Assembly (NCBI GenBank): GCA_015178975.1
Contig: WHVD01000083.1
Location: forward strand, 248,001 to 312,000
Source: Hysterangium stoloniferum
Taxonomy: Eukaryota; Basidiomycota; Agaricomycetes; Hysterangiales; Hysterangiaceae
DNA: 64,000 bases
Direction: 5' to 3'
In this document: one piece after another, positions 6,401 to 55,125 of the stretch
Layout of the letters: each line of letters starts with the position of its first letter
How positions within the stretch are numbered: the first letter of the stretch is position 1
Position numbers and translations under genes: made by a program
Notes under the pieces: model-generated
Told to the model about the DNA's origin: nothing
The model's input: only the letters and a program-made list of their open reading frames with translations
The model's database searches: none

Positions 6401-7219
6401 TGTTACGACCGGACAAATCCCGCCAGACTCCGGGCACTAACTCGTACGCCCCCACGCGCTACAAGCACCAATCGTCTGTTTATAGGATTTCCTGCCCGGA
6501 CTCCGTTACGTCAAGACTCGTTACGTTCGACCTCATTAAGACACATATCAGTCACCGGACTTCCCCCGGACCCCGTCTCTGTCTATGTCCGTCTTCGTCC
6601 CACGCATCAGTCACCGGAACCCGCTTAGAATCCCGTCACCGCTCTAATCGAGCCCCGTTCCCGTTTTAGTCAAATGACCTGTCACGATTTAGGACTCTGC
6701 TCCCGCTCCGTTTCCCGTTATGGGTTATGCTTTGTCACGATTCGGACTCCGCTCCGTTCCGTCCCGTTCCTAACACCAATTTGGTGTTTACTATTCCCGT
6801 TTTATGTTTTGCTCGTTTCGTTTCATTATTACTGGATTCGGTATGTCATGCATTCCACAGTCTATATAAACTGGCAGATGTTGTACATACAATCCAGTCA
6901 GAAAATTAGCTTAGATTCCCCCCAGTAATCTAATACATTTTCCTCTCTAAAACCTACTCTTATCAGACCGCTCGCACTAGTCGGAGCCCACGGGCTCCGG
7001 CGCATCTATCTCTCTCGACTATCTCGATTCACGACTCTCGACTCACGACCTACGACTCACGACCCACGAACCCCCGCCCGGACTCCCCGGGATTCCCGTC
7101 CGCCTGTCTGAAATTGGACAACACGATCTAGCGAGGGCGCAGCCTATAAGCTGAAGCCAAGTCCTACCGGATATTCCGCGGGTTTCTCCGGAAACCCGCC
7201 CTGTGTGTGTATCCTAACA
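6401..7219 (+). mobile_element. Solo LTR, family A, copy 1, inside the DIRS-like pol
   Basis: Begins TGTTACGACCGG and ends …ATCCTAACA. It is flanked by the exact 5-bp target duplication agccc (6396-6400 and 7220-7224). Two more copies with their own duplications lie at 48533-50089 and 50874-51729. It contains a TATA-like stretch near 6863 and the shared LTR core at about 7139. It is CpG-rich, so relatively young. Confidence 0.92.
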
Positions 7220-11879: not shown

Positions 11880-14765
11880 TGTTACGACCGTGTCGCAACC
11901 CTATCGGTCCTGAGGTTATCGCCACTTATCAACGTTTCAAGTCACCATCTCGGAAACCATCGGCCCCAAAGCTGACGAATGTTTTCGCGAAGATCAAACT
12001 CCGTTTACGCCCACGTCAAAATAACTCATATTGTCTGGTCAAACTTTGATATGTCCCCTTTATTATGTTGATCCGTTCAATCTTATGTTTCACATATGTC
12101 TATCTATATTTGTAGTCCTTGAACTATTTCCTTTTATCGTAACCCCGCTCTCAGTTATCATCGGCCTCCGAACTAATCATAAACTTCCCGTTCCTAGTCA
12201 AGCTTATTGTTAATACCGTTTTCCACCCTTCTCCCCATTAGTATTTTCTAGACACCTGTTACTTGTATATGAACCCACTGTAGTTGTAGTTACTAGGCAA
12301 TCAGAATATCGACTCAGAATACCCTCATACGCCTGTAATAGTCTCATACTAAGAATCCCCCCATCCGCCTCTGCATGCACTCGCCCACTCCCGGCACCGA
12401 CCCCTTGGCCTGACGCTCGACTTGTCCTTCAGTTCCGATCGGTATCTTGCCAAAAAGAGCTCTTTAGGATTAAGTCTTCGCCCGCCCAAAATCTAAGGAC
12501 ACCCTACGGATATTTGCGAGGGCGCAGCACATAAGCTGAAGCCAAGTCCTTCCGATTGGTCCCTGTCGGCCACCGACATTAGTCAGTTTTCAGTTCTTAA
12601 CAGTATATTCTGATTTCACACTTGCATTTTCCATTTAATTATGCCTCTGAGAAGAAATGCCAAGCCAAGCGGCGAAGCAGAATCTTCCACTCTCAAGTCT
12701 CCTTTCCTGTATACAGCCCAAGCTACTCAGAGAACCCCGCTACCAGAAACCTCCGAAGAATCTCACTTTGTGGAGATTACCGGCGATGCTGAAGAAGTAA
12801 CTGAAGCAACCGATCCCGAAGCAACTGAGGAGATTAACAATCAACCAGTCATGGAACACGAACCCGAGGATGGCGACCAACCTCAGGCTAGTGGCTCCAA
12901 GAAGTCCGCAAAAAAGACACCGGCTCTCGACCCTGAAGAGACATGGGAATTGTTTTCAGGTACTCTAGGATCCCTTAACGAATTCCTTAGAAGCAATATC
13001 AAGGAAAAGGAACCTGGGCAAACCCGAGTCAACAAACCCGAGCCATTCACTGGCTCAAACCTGAAGAAATTGCTGACATTTCTTATGCAATGTCGATTCA
13101 AGTTTTGGGACCGCCCAGCTGCATTCGCAACGGATGACCGAAAGGTAAACTTTGCACTCTCATACCTTAAGGATTCCGCAGCAGCCTGGTTTGAACCCAC
13201 ATTCTCTGGCCTCACCTCCGAAGACCCCGATTGGCTTCACGATTGGGATGCCTTTGTCGAGGAACTTGAAACCAACTTCGGTCCCTACAACCAAACTGGC
13301 AATGCCGAAACCGCGCTTTCTAATCTCAAAATGAAAGACACTCAGCGCATCACCGATTACATTGTCCAGTTCAACAACCTCGCCACACGTTGCGACTGGG
13401 GCGATTCGGCCCTCCGTTACCAGTTTTAACTCCAGCCTTCCGTCTCGCCTCAAAGATGAAGTTTCCAAAGGAGAGACCGGCAAGCTGAAGACCCTCCCTC
13501 TCATGCATCTGAAAGCCCAAAACGCAGATGCCCGATACTGGGAACGACATTCGGAAATTAGTTGTGAAAACCCTTCGGACAAGAAATCGTCGGACAATAA
13601 GAACGCCAACAAGTCTGGTAATCAAAAACCAACAACAGTGGCAATTCGACCTCCGATAAGAAGTCCGAAAACAAAGGGGCTAACGACAAAAAAGGCAAGG
13701 GAAAACAGTCGAATAAGTCTCAAGACAAAGACAAACCTGACTTAACTGGCAAACTCGGCTCTGATGGCAAGCTCCTACCACAGGAAAAGCAATGCCGAAT
13801 GGACAACAACCTTTGTTTGTTGTGCGCAGATCCCGGACACCGAGTCGCTGCATGCCCAAAAGCCACAAAATAGTCATGGTGGTTAAGGGAAGAGAAGTAA
13901 AATTTCAAGCGCCAGGACCCCTCGAATTTTTATATGTAAAATTTTGCCGAGTCACATGATGTTTTGACACACCCAGCCATACCCAACAAGTTTTTATGTA
14001 TGGGATCTAGATTTTCGGCCTCCTTGGGATTTCAGCCAAAAGGGGAGATACTGTTACGACCGTGTCACAACCCTATCGGTCCCGAGGTTATCGCCACTTA
14101 TCAACGTTTCAAGTCACCATCTCGGAAACCATCGGCCCCAAAGCTGATGAATGTTTTCGTGAAGATCAAACTCCGTTTACGCCCACGTCAAAATAACTCG
14201 TATTGTCTGGTCAAACTTTGATATGTCCCCTTTATTATGTTGATCCGTTCAATCTTATGTTTCACATATGTCTATCTATATTTGTAGTCCTTGAACTATT
14301 TCCTTTTATCATAACCCCACTCTTGGTTATCATCGGCCTCCGAACTAATCATAAACTTCCCGTTCCTAGTCAAGCTTATTGTTAATACCGTTTTCCACCC
14401 TTCTCCCCATTAGTATTTTATAGATGCCTGTTACTTGTATATGAACCCGCTGTAGTTGTAGTTACTAGGCAATCAGAATATCGACTCAGAATACCCTCAT
14501 ACGCCTGTAATAGTCTCATACTAAGAATCCCCCCATCCACCTCCACGTGCACTCGCCCACTCCTGGCCCCGACCCCTTGGCCCGACGCTCGACTTGTCCT
14601 TCAGTTCCGATCGGTATCTCACCGAAAAGAGCTCTTTAGGATTAAGTCTTCGCCCGCCTGAAATCTAAGGACACCCTACGGATATTTGTGAGGGCGCAGC
14701 ACATAAGCTGAAGCCAAGTCCTTCCGATCGGTCCCTGTCGGCCACCAACATTAGTCAGTTTTCAG
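11880..14765 (+). mobile_element. Ty3-type LTR element with gag only (non-autonomous fossil)
   Basis: Two direct LTRs of family B (11880-12602 and 14052-14765), over 90 percent alike by eye, flank about 1.45 kb. The internal part holds a gag frame and, just before the right LTR, a purine tract (AAAAGGGGAGATA) fitting a polypurine primer site. There is no protease, reverse transcriptase or integrase. It is inserted in a reverse LTR of its own family and so is younger than that LTR. Gag shows a few breaks; the LTR similarity suggests a moderately recent insertion. Confidence 0.88.
12641..13870 (+). pseudogene. Ty3-type gag region (fossil)
   Basis: Starts at an ATG 38 bases after the left LTR (MPLRRNAKPSGEAESST). 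It has an acidic N-terminal part, then the capsid-like block NKPEPFTGSNLKKLLTFLMQ, KVNFALSYLKDSAAAWFEPT and LSNLKMKDTQRITDYIVQFN. Near the end a CCHC knuckle (CLLCADPGHRVAAC) is recognisable. This is the gag of fungal Ty3/gypsy elements. The region is broken (a small number of breaks). Confidence 0.85.
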
Positions 14766-24105: not shown

Positions 24106-24180
24106 GGTCCAGTAGCTCAGTGGTTGAGAGCACTGCTTATATAAAGCTAGAGGTCCTTGGTTCAATCCCAGGCTGGGTCA
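24106..24180 (+). tRNA. tRNA-like sequence 1 (probable pseudogene)
   Basis: 75 nt fold as a cloverleaf: acceptor GGTCCAG with CTGGGTC, D stem GCTC/GAGC, T arm CTTGG-TTCAATC-CCAGG. A box (TAGCTCAGTGG) and B box (GGTTCAATCCC) match Pol III consensus and a TTTT follows at 24184. The anticodon arm is irregular: the loop reads TATATAA with A where U33 belongs, and its 3' strand has one extra base. No amino acid can be assigned. Confidence 0.5.
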
Positions 24181-24423: not shown

Positions 24424-24495
24424 GGTCAGGTGGTGTAATGGTTAACACCCCTGCTATATATGCAGAAGCCCTGGGTTCAATCCCCAGTCTGGCCA
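24424..24495 (+). tRNA. tRNA-like sequence 2 (probable pseudogene)
   Basis: 72 nt cloverleaf: acceptor GGTCAGG with TCTGGCC, D arm with GTG/CAC, T arm CTGGG-TTCAATC-CCCAG. A box TGGTGTAATGG and B box GGTTCAATCCC are intact and TTTT follows. The anticodon loop is TATATAT without U33. Downstream, CTACACTTTT and AAAAGTGTAG form a perfect hairpin (24499-24525) around a 3-nt loop. Confidence 0.5.
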
Positions 24496-40438: not shown

Positions 40439-41478
40439 ACCTATGATTATTTTACTTTCTAGTACTTTGTATGCCCCCCTTTTTCCTTTATAACTGCCCT
40501 GGTCCTTCTAGGCATACTTTCTATTAGATATTGGCAGACTTCTGGTTGGATTGCATTCCACTCCTCCACCACTCTCTCCCACAATTCATGTATTCCCTTG
40601 GGTGATGTGTTATATTTTTGGAGTTGGCATTTGAGGTGTTTCCAAAGATGTTCTATAGGGTTAAGATCAGGGGATTGGAGAGGCCAGGGTAGTACTTGAA
40701 TTTCCTTGTTCTCAAACCATTTTGTTGCCTGCTGAGATGTATGTTTAGGATCATTGTCCTGCTGAAAGTCATGGTTGGCCTCCTCCATTTCCAACTTTTC
40801 AAAACTTTCCACTACTCCCAGCTCCAAAATTTGACAGTATTGTTCAGCATCCATGCTCCCCTGCACTTCTATGAGCTTTCCCATCCTATTCCAACCTATA
40901 CAACCCCATACCATGAGGTTATTTCCTCTTCCATGTTTGACTGTTGGTGTTGTAGTCCTGTCAGACACTGGTTCCCCTCTTTGTTTCCATACATATGACT
41001 TTCCATCTGACCCAATCCTATTAATCTTTGTCTCATCTGACCATAACACCCTCTTCCAGTCCTCCACAGTCCAATTTTCATGATATTGGGCAAATTTGAG
41101 CCACTTCTGACAATGAATGGCTTTGAGCAATGGTCACTTTTGCTTTGTTGCAGAGTAAAAACCATTCTCCTTCAGTATATTTCTGATTGTTTGGGGAGTG
41201 ACAGGGTTGGAGATGATAGAATCAATGAATTGGGTAGCCTGAACTGCATTATCAAGCTGTCCAGAGCTAATTTGATGGATTATTGACTGTTTGTCACAAC
41301 CAGAAAGCTTGGAAGGACGACCCCCAGGATTGTTCTCCTTGTTCCCATCCACTTCCCTACTAATCCTATTCACAGTACTCTTGCCTAGACCAGTTCTTTC
41401 CTGGATTTGGTGATAGGAATAGCCTTCATTGAGAAGAGAGACAATAGAAGAGCATTGAGCAGTAGAAATAGATCTCAT
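40421..41478 (-). pseudogene. Tc1/mariner transposon with DD34E transposase, one in-frame TGA
   Basis: Minus strand, 339 codons in one frame from MRSISTAQCSSIVSLLNEGY at 41478 to TKY-stop at 40459. Residues about 1-115 form the paired helix-turn-helix DNA-binding part (ERTGLGKSTVNRISREV; GRPSKLS hook). The catalytic part has WSDETKINR, then FQQDNDPKHTSQQ and SPDLNPIEHLW, with 34 residues between the second Asp and the Glu. One TGA at 41131-41133 interrupts the frame (KQK-stop-PLLKAIH); a CGA to TGA change would explain it and fits the CpG loss here. Otherwise the transposase looks whole. A 3' terminal repeat may lie at 40421; no matching 5' end was found near 41500. Confidence 0.9.
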
Positions 41479-41569
41479 TTTCTTGTACTCTATGTAATAG
41501 TATATTCGAGTGCACTAATTCTTATTGAATTCTATGCAGGAGAAGTCTCAATAATAAAAATGGGGATCG

Positions 41570-42738
41570 ATGGCTTATCGTGAGGGAGCAGTTCGTTATT
41601 GCGGGGACCGAATTGTGATCGTGGGAAACATTATGTACTATTCGGACCGCGGTTTGATGATCATTTCAATCTCCGCAAGTGGCTCATTGCATTTGTAAAC
41701 TTTCTGATGCACTATGACTCACTCGTTTCATGTGGCAAAACTATCCACTCTTATTTCAGCTAATTGGACATCTCACTATGGGGTATGTCAGGCTACTGCG
41801 TTCCCAACCCGCCCCTTCTTAACATTGCGTTTGGGTCTTTCCGAGATAGGATGGAGAGATCTACCTTTTGGTTTTAAACATATTCTTTTTCTAGTGTCAC
41901 GCCAGAAACCGCCCGGTGAAAACACGCATCACTACTTCACTCTCGGCTCTGATTTTAACCAGAAGAGTAGGCTCCTATGTGTTGAACCACCGCTGAATTC
42001 TGGCGACTCCTCTCTTTACCTACACACATGCCCACACATCCCCGATGCTTCCCAATCATCAAATGTCACCCCTCTCGCCCATCGTTTAAATGCAGAAAGC
42101 TTCACTTTCTTCCGAGAAACAGTAATAGCCCATATGGATCAGTATGCTGGAGAACAACGTGACAATTACTTGAGGATTGCCGACGATTCTTCAAGAGAGT
42201 ATAGGAAACCGCGCTCTGCCTGCGTATTCGACATAACGGTCCAGGATGGGGCCAGAATCCTTGAGAAACAGGAGGTGTCATCATTAACGGAGAGGCCTTC
42301 AATATACAAGGAAATAGCAATATTTGAACAGTATGTCACCTACAGATATAAAGGGCATTGTTCTTTAGCAGATTTGTTTAAGGCTGTGTGCTGATTACTC
42401 TTGGCCTGGGATAGACCTTACGGTCACGTGGGCATCCGCTCACTGCCAGGTATGATTTAGTATTGTCATCAGGTGTTATCTCACTCCTTCTATAGTATTA
42501 TTTAGAAAATGGCTTTCCTCGAACGTCGCCTGTACTTCCGGTTTCTACGTACACCGGAATGTACCCTACATTCAATGACGATGTTAAAACGAATGCATTG
42601 ATTTTACACTCCATGGTGATTCCCCACAACGGCAACCCGCGTGTTCCCAAAGGTGATAATGATGAGGAATTTTTCGATTGGGATGAGGGTCCTGACGATG
42701 GCTTGGAGGATGTTCCACCTAATCAACCTGCAGTCTGA
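41570..42738 (+). CDS. Hypothetical protein; its frame can also be spliced into the HAD-CK1 gene
   Basis: A likely ATG at 41570 opens MAYREGAVRYCGDRIVIVGN. The splice between about 41680 and 41897 is unresolved. A long exon to 42330 (HRLNAESFTFFRETVIAHMD, REYRKPRSACVFDITVQDGA) joins by GT-AG to 42383-42449 (LCADYSWPGIDLTVTWASAH) and 42496-42738 (YYLENGFPRTSPVLPVSTYT … acidic tail … TGA at 42736). No family recognised; a soluble protein, with neither signal peptide nor membrane helix. A second possible splice from 42652 (donor GTGATA) to 42755 removes the TGA and keeps frame with the HAD domain. The fact that the HAD part lacks its own ATG favours one gene with two 3' forms. Confidence 0.65.
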
Positions 42739-42754
42739 GCCTCCGACATTAAAG

Positions 42755-44692
42755 TTATTGCCTTTGATTTGTTGGGGACGCTTCTTGTAACTGAGCCCAT
42801 TTTTGTGGAAGTTAACTGGACTGAACACTCTTTAGGATCGTCGGTCATGCTTAGTAAGGGGATTGCGCATGCTCGTATCTCAAGATATGGCCAATGATGC
42901 CTTACTAGCCCATTATATTGAATGTGAATCCCTTCGGTATCTAGCTAACAAGGTCGCTTCGTATGACAATATTGTTTACAATGCGTTGAAGGATATGTCA
43001 GCTCGTCTTGGACTCGACGTGCACCACCAATTATTACAAGATACTACCAGAACTATCCTGCAAATCAGCTTTTATCCTGACGCTCTACGGGTGATAAACT
43101 CCCTCCATGGTCGTGGTTATATGGTGGTTGGACTCCCGCTTCCCCTGCAGAACGCCTACTCACTTCCTGAATTCCCACCCGAGCTTCTGATAGATATTTC
43201 TTATCAAGGTGCAGACGGTCCTGAATGCTTATTTTTGCCAACACCATCGGTCTTTCCTGCGCTCCATCAATGGTGTCAATCTTTCTATAGAGATATACGG
43301 CCCACCCAGATCTTAATAGTTACAGCAAGCTCTTACCGAATTGTCGAGCCTGCAACTTCAGCAGGCTTCCCGACCGTCTTGCTTCCACCCGGTGAAGTCT
43401 ATGAACCCGAAGTCGATTACGTACGGTGGGAGCCTACGATATATTTGGATGACTTGTCAGATCTATGCGACACTCTAGAAGCCTCATCGTCGGAAATTTC
43501 TGCGGCACCGGCCCAACTTGAGCCCTCACATATTGTAGAGTTTCGGCTTCACACATTTTTCCAGGCATTGTTTCGTCTTGGGGGCGGTAGCTCTGGTTCG
43601 TAAATTTGATTCATGTGTTGCTTCGTATCATGCGTCCTTGTATTATTTTAGGGGAGGTCTTTTCAGGATACAATGTGCTTTCTGGCAACCATGTCGCGAT
43701 GAAACTGGAGATACCAGAAGGGAGATCCGACGGGATTCGTACAGTTCCATACGAAGCGCAGGTATACAAAGTCCTTGGCCGTCATCCTGGGTTTCCTTGT
43801 TTGAGGTGGGCCGGCACGCAGGGTGAAACGCACGCCTTAATTATGGATCCAGTTGGGCCAACACTCGAACATCTCCGTAGATTATGTAGAGGTAAATTAA
43901 CGCATAAAACAGTTACGATGCTCGCTTTGCAAATGGTTAATCCATGTATTATGTGGAGCTGCAATCACAATTTCTGATATAATTCCTTCTTTTTAGCTAG
44001 AAAGGGTCGAATTTGTCCACTCCCGTGGCATCATTGTTCGTGATATAAAAGCGGAAAACTTCTCCATGGGAAATAAGTGCCTAGCTCACATGGTCCAAAT
44101 GTTTGATTTCGGACATGCGAAGCTCTACCTCAACCCATCCACCGGAGAACATATTCCGTATCGCGAAGGCCGTGCCCTGGTAGGCACGCCTCGTTTCTGC
44201 AGCTACAATGCTCATTTTGGAAGAGGTTTGTTATGTGTCTTTGAAGTCAGGAGACGTTGTCTTAAGTCACTCTTGAGTTGCACAGAAGCTAGCCGACGTG
44301 ATGACATAGAAGCACTCGGTAACACACTTCTTTATTTTTTGCATGGGTCACTGCCGTGGCAGGGTACAAAAGCAGAAAGCCACCAAGATCATCACCTGCT
44401 CCTGGGCAACATGAAAGGAGGACAGTCGTTCGACGATTTTCTTTCTCGTTCGCCCTCTGAGTTTAGGATATATTATGATCATTGCCGCAGTCTAGGATTT
44501 GAAGATAAACCGGACTATTCATTTCTCCAAGGGCTCTTCCAAAAGAGAATGGCTGGAGAGGGATGGGTGGATGATGGGCGGTTCGACTGGTTCATTGGGC
44601 GATCATTGGAGAAAGGCACGATTCTTCTCGATGAATATAAAGCTGACATCAGATTTGCGGAAAAGCATTTTAAGTGGATTAAATGGGTTTGA
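42755..44692 (+). CDS. HAD-like domain fused to a CK1-like protein kinase domain
   Basis: Exons 42755-42786, 42836-43595, 43652-43935, 43997-44225, 44286-44692 keep one frame to TGA at 44690. N-terminal part: VIAFDLLGTLLDRRSCLVRG with the nucleophile Asp of HAD hydrolases, cap region (HYIECESLRYLANKVASYDN), ISFYPDALRVINSLHGRGY, and ILIVTASSYRIVEPATSAGF. The usual motif II Ser/Thr and the KP of motif III are not evident, so activity is doubtful. The frame then runs on without a stop into the glycine loop RLGGGSSGEVFSGYN, VAMKLE (lysine), IIVRDIKAENFSMG, FDFGHAK, GTPRFCSYNAHFGR and SRRDDIEALGNTLLYFLHGS, all hallmarks of casein kinase 1. HRD has become VRD. Donor GTTCGT at 43596 is unusual. No ATG lies upstream in frame except through the 41570-42652 exons; joined to them the protein would be roughly 850-880 residues, depending on the unresolved 5' splice. 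Confidence 0.85.
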
Positions 44693-44699
44693 CCGCCAA

Positions 44700-45753
44700 T
44701 TATTAGTCCCCAGGATCAAAATTCACCACAGCACCATTTACTTACCCCTTCCCAATCCTCTTTTACTACCAGTATGCTGATCTACTCCCTTTCCCAAATT
44801 TTCATCCATACCATGGTTCATTGAGTAGCTTGATATGGGGTTGTTCAGTCAATACAATACATCATTCAACTTCATGTGTCTCCTGTCTCAGTGTAACCTT
44901 TCAAACAACAATTGGATAATCAACTGACTAGTAAATGTGTTCAATGAAGATTGTACTGTTAGGCTCTTAACAAGGCTACATGCTCACTGAGACTGTCGAA
45001 AAGTATTTAATTAGATGCACTGTATGCCAGGTAGCAGCTTCATCATTCCGGTCTATGGTATTTACAAGCTTTGTGGGGTAATCAAGCTCTTAATGAATGC
45101 AGGAATAAAATCAAGGTATTGGCTCATTGGCTCTGCTGCATACATGGCTCAGTCTTGCCCCTCAATCAGGGTCTTGTACTCTACTATTCTCCAGTCAGAT
45201 GTCATCCTCTTCTGTGAGATGGGGAACTGTTAAGCCCAAAGCTCATGGGTGGGTATCCAGGGAAAACCTGTGGTTGTTCTGGGGATTTGGCTTCAGCTGA
45301 TGTGCTGCACCCTCACACAATTGTTGAGTCCAATTTCAGGTGGAAGGATCCAGGGAACCTGGGAGTCTGGGAATATGCAAAAAGGTAGAGATGGGAAGCC
45401 CAGGGGCTCCAAGAATACACTATGTCTTGGTAAGAGGGCCTGTGGATTCCAGGAATACACTGGTGTATAGTTTTACTAGGTGTTGTGTATTAGAAATAGT
45501 ATGAGTTGGCTTATTGTAATACACAATTTACAAGGGTTTAATAGACTTGTTATAGAAGTACTTGTGTGTCAATCAATGTGTCAGTTAGTGGATCACCTTT
45601 TGACATGATAGGTTTGGTGCTAGTTTAGGTGTACACTGGTTCTGTCATGCATTAGCCTCAGAATGCATGGTCCACAATTAGCATTTTCATATGAAAAGCT
45701 GAAGAAATGGATGAACCACCCCTAGGAAAAAGGGTGTTTCATCACCGATTCCA
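44700..45753. other. CpG-poor LTR debris, no gene
   Basis: Near 45230 TGTTAAGCCCAAAG followed by a reverse copy of the shared LTR core at about 45288 marks a reverse LTR end related to family A. The rest is unrecognised repeat-like sequence. Confidence 0.45.
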
Positions 45754-50873: not shown

Positions 50874-51729
50874 TGTTAGGATACGTACAGGGCAGGTCTC
50901 TGGAGAAACCTGTGGAATATCCAGTAGGACTTGGCTTCAGCTTATAGGCTGCACCCTCTCTAGATCGTGTTGTCCAATTTCAGACAGGTGGATGGGAATC
51001 CCGGGGAGTCTGGGCGGGGGTCGTGGGTCATAAGTCATAAGTTGGAGGTCATGGGTCATGAGTCGGAGGTCATGGGTCGTGAGTTGAAGGTCATGGGTCG
51101 TGAGTTGAGACTAGTGAGAGAGATAGATGTGCCGGAGCCTGCAGGCTCCAACTAGTGTGAGTGGTTTGAATCAAGTAGGGTTTTAGAGTGGAAAATGTAT
51201 TAGATTACTGGGGGGAATCTAAGCCAATTTTCTGACTGGATTGCATGTACAACATCTGCCAGTTTAAATAGACCGTGAAGTAAATGTCATACCGAATCCA
51301 GTAATAATGAAACGAAGTGAGCAAAACATAAAATGGGAATAGTAAACACCAAATTGGTGTTAGGAACGGGATGGAACGGAGCGGAGTCCAAATCGTGACA
51401 AAGCATAACCCATAATGGGAAACGGAGCAGGAGCGGAGTACAAATCGTGACAGGTCATTTGACTAAAATGGGAACAGGGCTCAATTAGAGTGGTGACGGG
51501 ATTCTGAGTGGGGTCCGGTGACTGATGCATGGGATGAAGATGGACATAGACAGAGACAGAGTCCGGGGGAAGTCCAGTGACTGATATGTGTCGTAATGAG
51601 GTTGAATGTAACAAGTCTTGACGTACGGAGTCTGGGTGGGAAATCCTATAAACAGACAATTGGTGCGTGTAGGGCGTGGTGGCATACAGGTTAGTGCCCG
51701 GAGTCCGGCGGGATTGTCCAGTCATAACA
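50874..51729 (-). mobile_element. Solo LTR, family A, copy 3, reverse
   Basis: TGTTAGGATACGTACAGGGC at the left and …GTCCAGTCATAACA at the right, 856 bp, with exact duplication tttgg at 50869-50873 and 51730-51734. Core near 50930 in reverse, TATA region near 51260. Confidence 0.9.
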
Positions 51730-51734
51730 TTTGG

Positions 51735-54355: not shown

Positions 54356-55057
54356 TTATGGGATAATATGACGTGGCGCCCCAGCCGCAATCTCCAGCCT
54401 TTCGACCTCCTTCCGTAAGGACTCGCATCCCTCCTCTAGCCATCTGCAATATTCCACTGCTCTAAACAACACACCAGACTTCCCCTTTGCGCTACACGCC
54501 GCTCTTCCCCTTATACCGCTCCCTTTGGGACGACCTCTCGTCGGAATCCCGGATCCAAGAGGAGCACCCGCAGGGGCAAGCATATTCGTTAATGTAGCAT
54601 ACCCATCCCGTATGGCATTCCTCCGCTTCTGTTCCGACATGATATGGTTCAGCCGTTTCTGTGGCGTACTAAGCAGAGGTTTGGTGCGCGTAGTGTGATT
54701 ATGATGAGGGGGAGGCGATGGCGCCGATTTAGGTCGATCGTCTGGCTGGGTCTGAGATTCTGATGGTGGAAGGACTAGTGGTTGTGGTATGGGAGGTGGT
54801 GGTGAACATGTTGTTATGGACGGATCGGATTGTGACGAGGTAAAAACAGGGAGACCTGGAGGAAGAACAGGATCGAATTCCCAATCGAAATTATCCAGGA
54901 AACCGAAAATAGAGTTCGTTTCAGCTGAAGAAAGCAGCGAATTGTCTAGTTCTAGGTCTGGAAAGGGGAAAAGGCTGTTGTCGGCCGGGAAAAGTTGGTC
55001 ATCAAGAGAAAAGTCGGAGTAGGGGACAGGGGGCTGGATTGTTGGCATGCTTGCCAT
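54356..55057 (-). CDS. bHLH transcription factor, single exon, 233 residues
   Basis: ATG at 55057 (MASMPTIQPPVPYSDFSLDD) to TAA at 54356. The N-terminal half is acidic and hydrophobic (DNSLLSSAETNSIFGFLDNF, likely activation-type) and then Pro/Ser-rich. The bHLH starts at about residue 135: PQKRLNHIMSEQKRRNAIRD gives the basic region and helix 1 (His-x3-Glu-x3-Arg, written here N-H-I-M-S-E-Q-K-R-R, expected to read E boxes), a loop of about 35 residues with GRPKGSGIRGR, then KSGVLFRAVEYCRWLEEG as helix 2, running on into a short leucine-type coiled coil. The loop is longer than in most bHLH proteins, as in fungal Ino4/Pho4-like or SREBP-like factors; the exact subfamily is not assignable. Intact. 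Confidence 0.9.
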   Translation of the reverse strand: MASMPTIQPPVPYSDFSLDDQLFPADNSLFPFPDLELDNSLLSSAETNSIFGFLDNFDWEFDPVLPPGLPVFTSSQSDPSITTCSPPPPIPQPLVLPPSESQTQPDDRPKSAPSPPPHHNHTTRTKPLLSTPQKRLNHIMSEQKRRNAIRDGYATLTNMLAPAGAPLGSGIPTRGRPKGSGIRGRAACSAKGKSGVLFRAVEYCRWLEEGCESLRKEVERLEIAAGAPRHIIP

Positions 55058-55125
55058 ATTGACTATTATCTACCGTGATCAATGAGATGTTGGGGTAGAC
55101 TGGGGTAATGAGGCAGAAGCAACCT

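Follow-up and report, generated by a model that had tools for sequence, protein, structure and literature searches.

A probable chimeric gene family joining a degenerate HAD-like domain to a CK1-type protein kinase in Hysterangium stoloniferum

In a 64,000-nucleotide stretch of the Hysterangium stoloniferum genome (C537:248001-312000; hereafter the window), a HAD-like reading frame is followed closely by a CK1-like kinase, which raises the question of whether the two are parts of one protein or two genes whose frames happen to abut. An earlier note on this DNA had placed both domains in one continuous frame at 42755-44692 and suggested the pairing of a hydrolase or phosphatase with a kinase. 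We examined the locus together with its copies in the same genome (111 Mb in 554 contigs), and all of the copies compared come from this one genome.

Alignment of the four full copies of the locus showed homology from about 41641 to 44939, well upstream of 42755, and the three copies outside the window delimited a seven-exon gene at window positions 41714-44692 on the plus strand. The gene therefore begins at 41714 and not, as had been supposed, at 42755, and its domain order is an N-terminal domain (about 308 amino acid residues), a type II HAD-like domain, a linker and a complete CK1 kinase. The features of the locus are as follows.

40462..41514, minus strand: transposase outside the gene, divided by an in-frame stop into two frames (Pfam)
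41714..42330, plus strand: exon 1, with the start ATG and the greater part of the N-terminal domain; open in all four copies, each with an in-frame ATG
42383..42449, plus strand: exon 2; the phase-keeping GT-AG introns at 42331-42382 and 42450-42495 are found in all four copies
42496..42786, plus strand: exon 3, with the last part of the N-terminal domain, an acidic linker and HAD motif I; open in the three sister copies
42736..42738, plus strand: in-frame TGA at codon 309 of the window copy, read directly from the sequence
42763-42786, plus strand: HAD motif I, FDLLGTLL, within exon 3
42836..43595, plus strand: exon 4, remainder of the HAD-like domain, linker and CK1 glycine loop (TIGR01428 match and motif comparison)
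43574-43595, plus strand: CK1 glycine loop, RLGGGSSG, within exon 4
43652..43935, plus strand: exon 5, CK1 N-lobe with the VAMK lysine (copy comparison and CK1 structure alignment)
43997..44225, plus strand: exon 6, CK1 catalytic loop RDIKAEN, DFG and HIPYRE (CK1 structure alignment)
44286..44692, plus strand: exon 7, SRRDD motif, C-lobe, short tail and stop (CK1 structure alignment)

The six introns are 46-61 nt long and are bounded by GT...AG in all four copies. As the earlier note had read it, the HAD-like frame runs open into the glycine loop within exon 4, and the junction 43595/43652 is in phase, its spliced product aligning with CK1 structures (E = 4.5e-77 for the rice CK1-like kinase 3sv0, with three gap residues over about 285 positions). 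The frame is, however, continuous only over 42836-43595, since the intron at 42787-42835 splits the HAD part, and instead of the four further junctions that had been claimed, the region 42755-44692 has three besides 43595/43652 (its four introns follow 42786, 43595, 43935 and 44225).

The genome was searched with the HAD exon, which gave six matches at five places (the window, C257, two in C38 and a partial match in C529), and with the last two kinase exons, which gave 44 matches, the best being the same four full places, followed by more distant CK1-like genes. The front half of the gene was also recovered at the copy loci by a DNA search. Two of the copies are open over all seven exons: L047 (C257; 891 codons) and L048 (C38:177508; 897 codons). 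The third, L049, on the minus strand of C38, is interrupted by one TAG at codon 579, immediately ahead of the glycine loop. The match in C529 is a frame-broken relic that retains a large share of the N-terminal part and roughly half of the HAD-like domain (71% DNA identity over positions 167-1481 of the 1886-base query). An interspersed repeat of about 840 bp was also observed at window positions 6401-7219 and 50874-51731, at 1248-2069 and 8400-9248 of L047 and at 4960-5761 of L050; the intact gene at C257 lies between two direct copies of it, 90.5% identical and about 7 kb apart, and the repeat is missing from the 9.9-kb stretches of the C38 copies.

Are the HAD-like and CK1 parts then neighbouring genes with separate transcripts, abutting in frame by chance? 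By eye, the sequence before the glycine loop looks like the region where ordinary CK1 genes begin, so that an ancestral CK1 start would have lain close by. The joint, however, lies inside a single exon of 760 nt in all four copies, none of them has a methionine between the HAD part and the glycine loop, and three have no stop there, the fourth having the TAG mentioned above. A separate kinase would also need an extra 5' exon, of which we saw no sign. We further compared the window copy with its sisters in terms of dN/dS (Nei-Gojobori counts, with codons containing gaps or stops excluded). The values against L047 and L048, respectively, were 0.43 and 0.43 for the N-terminal part, 0.30 and 0.30 for the HAD-like domain, 0.27 and 0.29 for the 26-codon linker and 0.21 and 0.23 for the kinase, with about 0.30 for the whole gene against the sisters; those against L049 equalled the L048 values within rounding. 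In a binomial test of silent changes against the proportion of silent sites, with the window compared with L047, the excess was P = 1e-5 for the N-terminal part, 1.4e-7 for the HAD-like domain, 8e-17 for the kinase and 0.03 for the linker, where the result rests on 17 changes and is weak by itself as evidence of coding-type change across the joint. Indels in the exons are multiples of three except at the frame start and the very end. Because three other loci match the order of the domains, the exon limits and the six GT...AG introns, and because silent changes are in excess in every part (weakly so in the linker), the HAD-CK1 order is beyond chance. We consider two separate genes very unlikely and rejected them on the exon structure together with the coding-type change across the joint. 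That the two domains belong to one protein, as the earlier note had proposed, is supported for the family by two intact sisters, conserved splice sites and coding-type change, although the window copy itself has a premature stop. As for the introns, identity between the window and its sisters is 68-77% for introns 1, 4, 5 and 6 and 78-80% for intron 3; intron 2 (42450-42495) is 89-91% identical, which is above its flanking exons and agrees less well with the picture of constrained coding sequence.

The kinase part of the gene is of the CK1 type. The top PDB rows were CK1 structures, with tau-tubulin kinases next at E = 3.8e-38, and Pfam Pkinase matched the window kinase (E = 8.7e-21) and the L047 protein (E = 6.6e-24). 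As in the CK1 family at large (rice 3sv0, CK1 delta, yeast Hrr25 and Yck2), the whole kinase domain aligns, including HIPYRE, and the VAIK/VAMK lysine, RDIK, DFG and SRRDD are kept in all four copies; in contrast to that family, the histidine of HRD is replaced by valine or isoleucine, and the kinase is preceded not by a short N-terminus but by about 560 residues including the HAD-like domain. The fused protein is most likely an active CK1 kinase, a reading against which the replaced histidine counts. In the C-terminal part, identity between the window kinase and its sister copies is 76%; the fused kinases share 44-46% with the ordinary CK1 genes at C23 and C509 and 43-45% with a second CK1-like type at C517. 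In the ordinary CK1 genes that we read, one intron (phase 1) interrupts the glycine loop and another (phase 0) falls at ADQL/LSRIEY; the fused gene has introns at both of these places in the same phases (compared by script for C509 and by eye for C23).

Other CK1-like genes were seen during these comparisons. A second copy of an ordinary CK1 gene, located at C509 (about 164.1-165.4 kb; L054 8600-9950), is pseudokinase-like, with HGD for HRD and GFG for DFG, and its exons are open. The second CK1-like type is present in multiple copies, at L051 (C517), L052 (C512) and several other places; by eye, the C517 gene has an intron placed as intron 6 of the fused gene. No match to the HAD profile was found for this second type in the stretches examined, and in eight stretches covering nine of the 15 other CK1-like places the best row for that profile was at chance level (E = 1.9).

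The HAD-like domain named in the earlier note was also confirmed by profile searches, clearly against TIGR01428 and weakly in Pfam. The spliced HAD part matched TIGR01428 (HAD type II) with E = 4.9e-13 in the window and 3.7e-13 in L047, and its scores of 49.5 and 49.9 bits, respectively, are below the curated cut-off of 125.4, which was passed by no match anywhere in the genome (six frames, exon by exon). Matches to Pfam PF00702 (E = 0.0021 for the window and 0.17 for the whole L047 protein) were also below the cut-off, and the solved L-2-haloacid dehalogenase 1zrm gave a weak profile match (E = 5.4e-4). The region of likeness to the type II family (TIGR01428 and 1zrm) comprises motif I and what follows it, whereas the residues of motifs II, III and IV, at the positions that we take to correspond to these motifs, are replaced. 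Motif I, including the nucleophile aspartate, reads FDLLGTLL in all four copies and FDLYGTLL in the ordinary HAD gene C334. At motif II, the serine and asparagine stand against two valines in profile alignments to two solved dehalogenases (SNG.P in 1zrm and 1qq5 versus VVGLP); the profile was built from three copies, and L049 has the same residues. An alignment by MAFFT with the ordinary HAD gene C68 puts motif II elsewhere, which makes its loss less certain than those of motifs III and IV. In comparison with C334 (which, like C68, was pieced together from open frames), the lysine of motif III is replaced by leucine (KPSP versus LPTP) and the aspartate of motif IV by arginine (FD versus YR or FR) in all four copies.

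Because of these three replacements, the HAD-like domain is probably not an enzyme. The hydrolase/phosphatase partner that had been envisaged for the kinase is not borne out, and an active HAD hydrolase was rejected on the missing residues. A bifunctional hydrolase-kinase, in which the HAD part would still be enzymatic, could appeal to the motif I aspartate, which is identical in all four copies, but it would have to work with the altered residues at the other three motifs, and we regard it as highly improbable. A search with the HAD profile in viral_contigs gave 32 pattern hits, none of which was confirmed; the collection is not fungal, and the result says little.

When searched as one protein in six frames (E <= 0.1), the N-terminal 308 residues were found only at the four full loci and in the C529 relic, and remote relatives could escape such a search. 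The N-terminal part of L047 had no Pfam match at E <= 5, DUF1669 and the pseudo-PLD domain included, and its profile gave a single chance-level row in the PDB (E = 0.34). In the stretches around other CK1-like genes, the best row for this profile had E = 0.09 (L057, about 23 residues) and was taken as chance. Pattern hits in genome_contigs (33) and viral_contigs (11) were not confirmed; neither collection is fungal, and these results too say little.

The window copy differs from the intact sisters in its TGA at 42736-42738, which immediately precedes the HAD part; at this position a sense codon is found in the sister copies and in the C529 relic. Since no ATG occurs from the TGA to HAD motif I, the full protein cannot be made from the window copy by plain translation. 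That the TGA is an assembly error, the window copy being as intact as L047 and L048, would be in line with a single codon deciding the matter and with the remaining frame, which is open and looks constrained; yet a second copy, L049, also has a nonsense codon, and we consider an error quite unlikely. Just upstream of the gene, the transposase is recognised by DDE_3 (E = 4.6e-13, 40462-41133) and HTH_7 (E = 3.1e-5, 41134-41514), and an inverted-repeat search around it gave no pair acceptable as its ends. The homology of the window to the sister loci begins only at 41641-41663, after the transposase, and the transposase may therefore have separated the window copy from its promoter. The premature stop, together with the transposon remains just upstream, suggests that the window copy is probably decaying. 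Elsewhere in the window we noted a Ty3-type retrotransposon gag (12614-13426, plus strand; PF03732, E = 1.3e-11), two close tRNA genes (24106-24180 and 24424-24495, plus strand; both called as tRNA-Ile(TAT) with the finder in its bacterial setting, and matched by Rfam tRNA) and a weak helix-loop-helix DNA-binding domain (54359-55069, minus strand; PF00010, 21.8 bits versus a cut-off of 20.7).

Decay may not be confined to the window copy. Two of the four full copies have a nonsense codon, so the family of fused genes may be on its way out, and one could go further and regard the whole family as pseudogenes of one old fusion, with no present function. The stops in the window and L049, the decayed C529 relic and the comparison of the close intact copies L047 and L048, in which dN/dS reaches 0.53 for the whole gene and 0.95 for the N-terminal part (22 changes), all point that way, and on these last values, which come from few changes, recent constraint is unproven. 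Against this stand the two copies with full-length open frames, the whole-gene dN/dS between the window and its sisters and the kept kinase motifs, and we regard a family made up entirely of pseudogenes as unlikely, though deserving some weight.

The reading that we favour, with moderate confidence, is a chimeric family of proteins of about 890 residues, composed of the N-terminal domain, a degenerate HAD type II domain and a CK1-type Ser/Thr kinase, in which the front half would serve to place or dock the kinase. As to its origin, a HAD-containing gene would most likely have contributed its 3' end, fused to the first coding exon of an intron-bearing CK1 gene, and the fused gene would then have come to occupy four loci, with one relic. 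Since two of the introns match those of ordinary CK1 genes, the HAD exon was probably joined to the first exon of a genomic CK1 gene and not to a retrocopy. The fused protein would be a CK1 kinase with a new front end, and this non-catalytic half would most likely, by analogy, bind a partner, ligand or site and so set the place or the substrates of the kinase. In vertebrates, FAM83 proteins, which carry the DUF1669 pseudo-phospholipase-D domain, bind CK1 and deliver isoforms to particular compartments (PMC6008594). There, too, an enzyme-like domain without catalytic activity is associated with a CK1 kinase, but it belongs to a separate PLD-like protein, whereas the HAD-like domain here lies in the kinase's own chain, and the comparison is an analogy only. 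Tentatively, and with somewhat less than even confidence, one might see in the fused gene a CK1 architecture of a new type, with a dead dehalogenase fold and a lineage-specific domain that would act as a built-in anchor or sensor within the same chain, by a logic parallel to that of FAM83. Among the papers listed in our literature searches there was no HAD-CK1 fusion, and in the main text of a survey of fungal kinase-associated domains the words 'hydrolase' and 'dehalogenase' occur 0 times (PMC2838846); the arrangement may already stand in sequence databases. A natural fusion of CK1 with a degenerate enzyme domain would provide a ready-made example of a kinase that carries its own anchor or docking part, and it would show how kinase genes can gain new front ends through exon joining in large, transposon-rich genomes.
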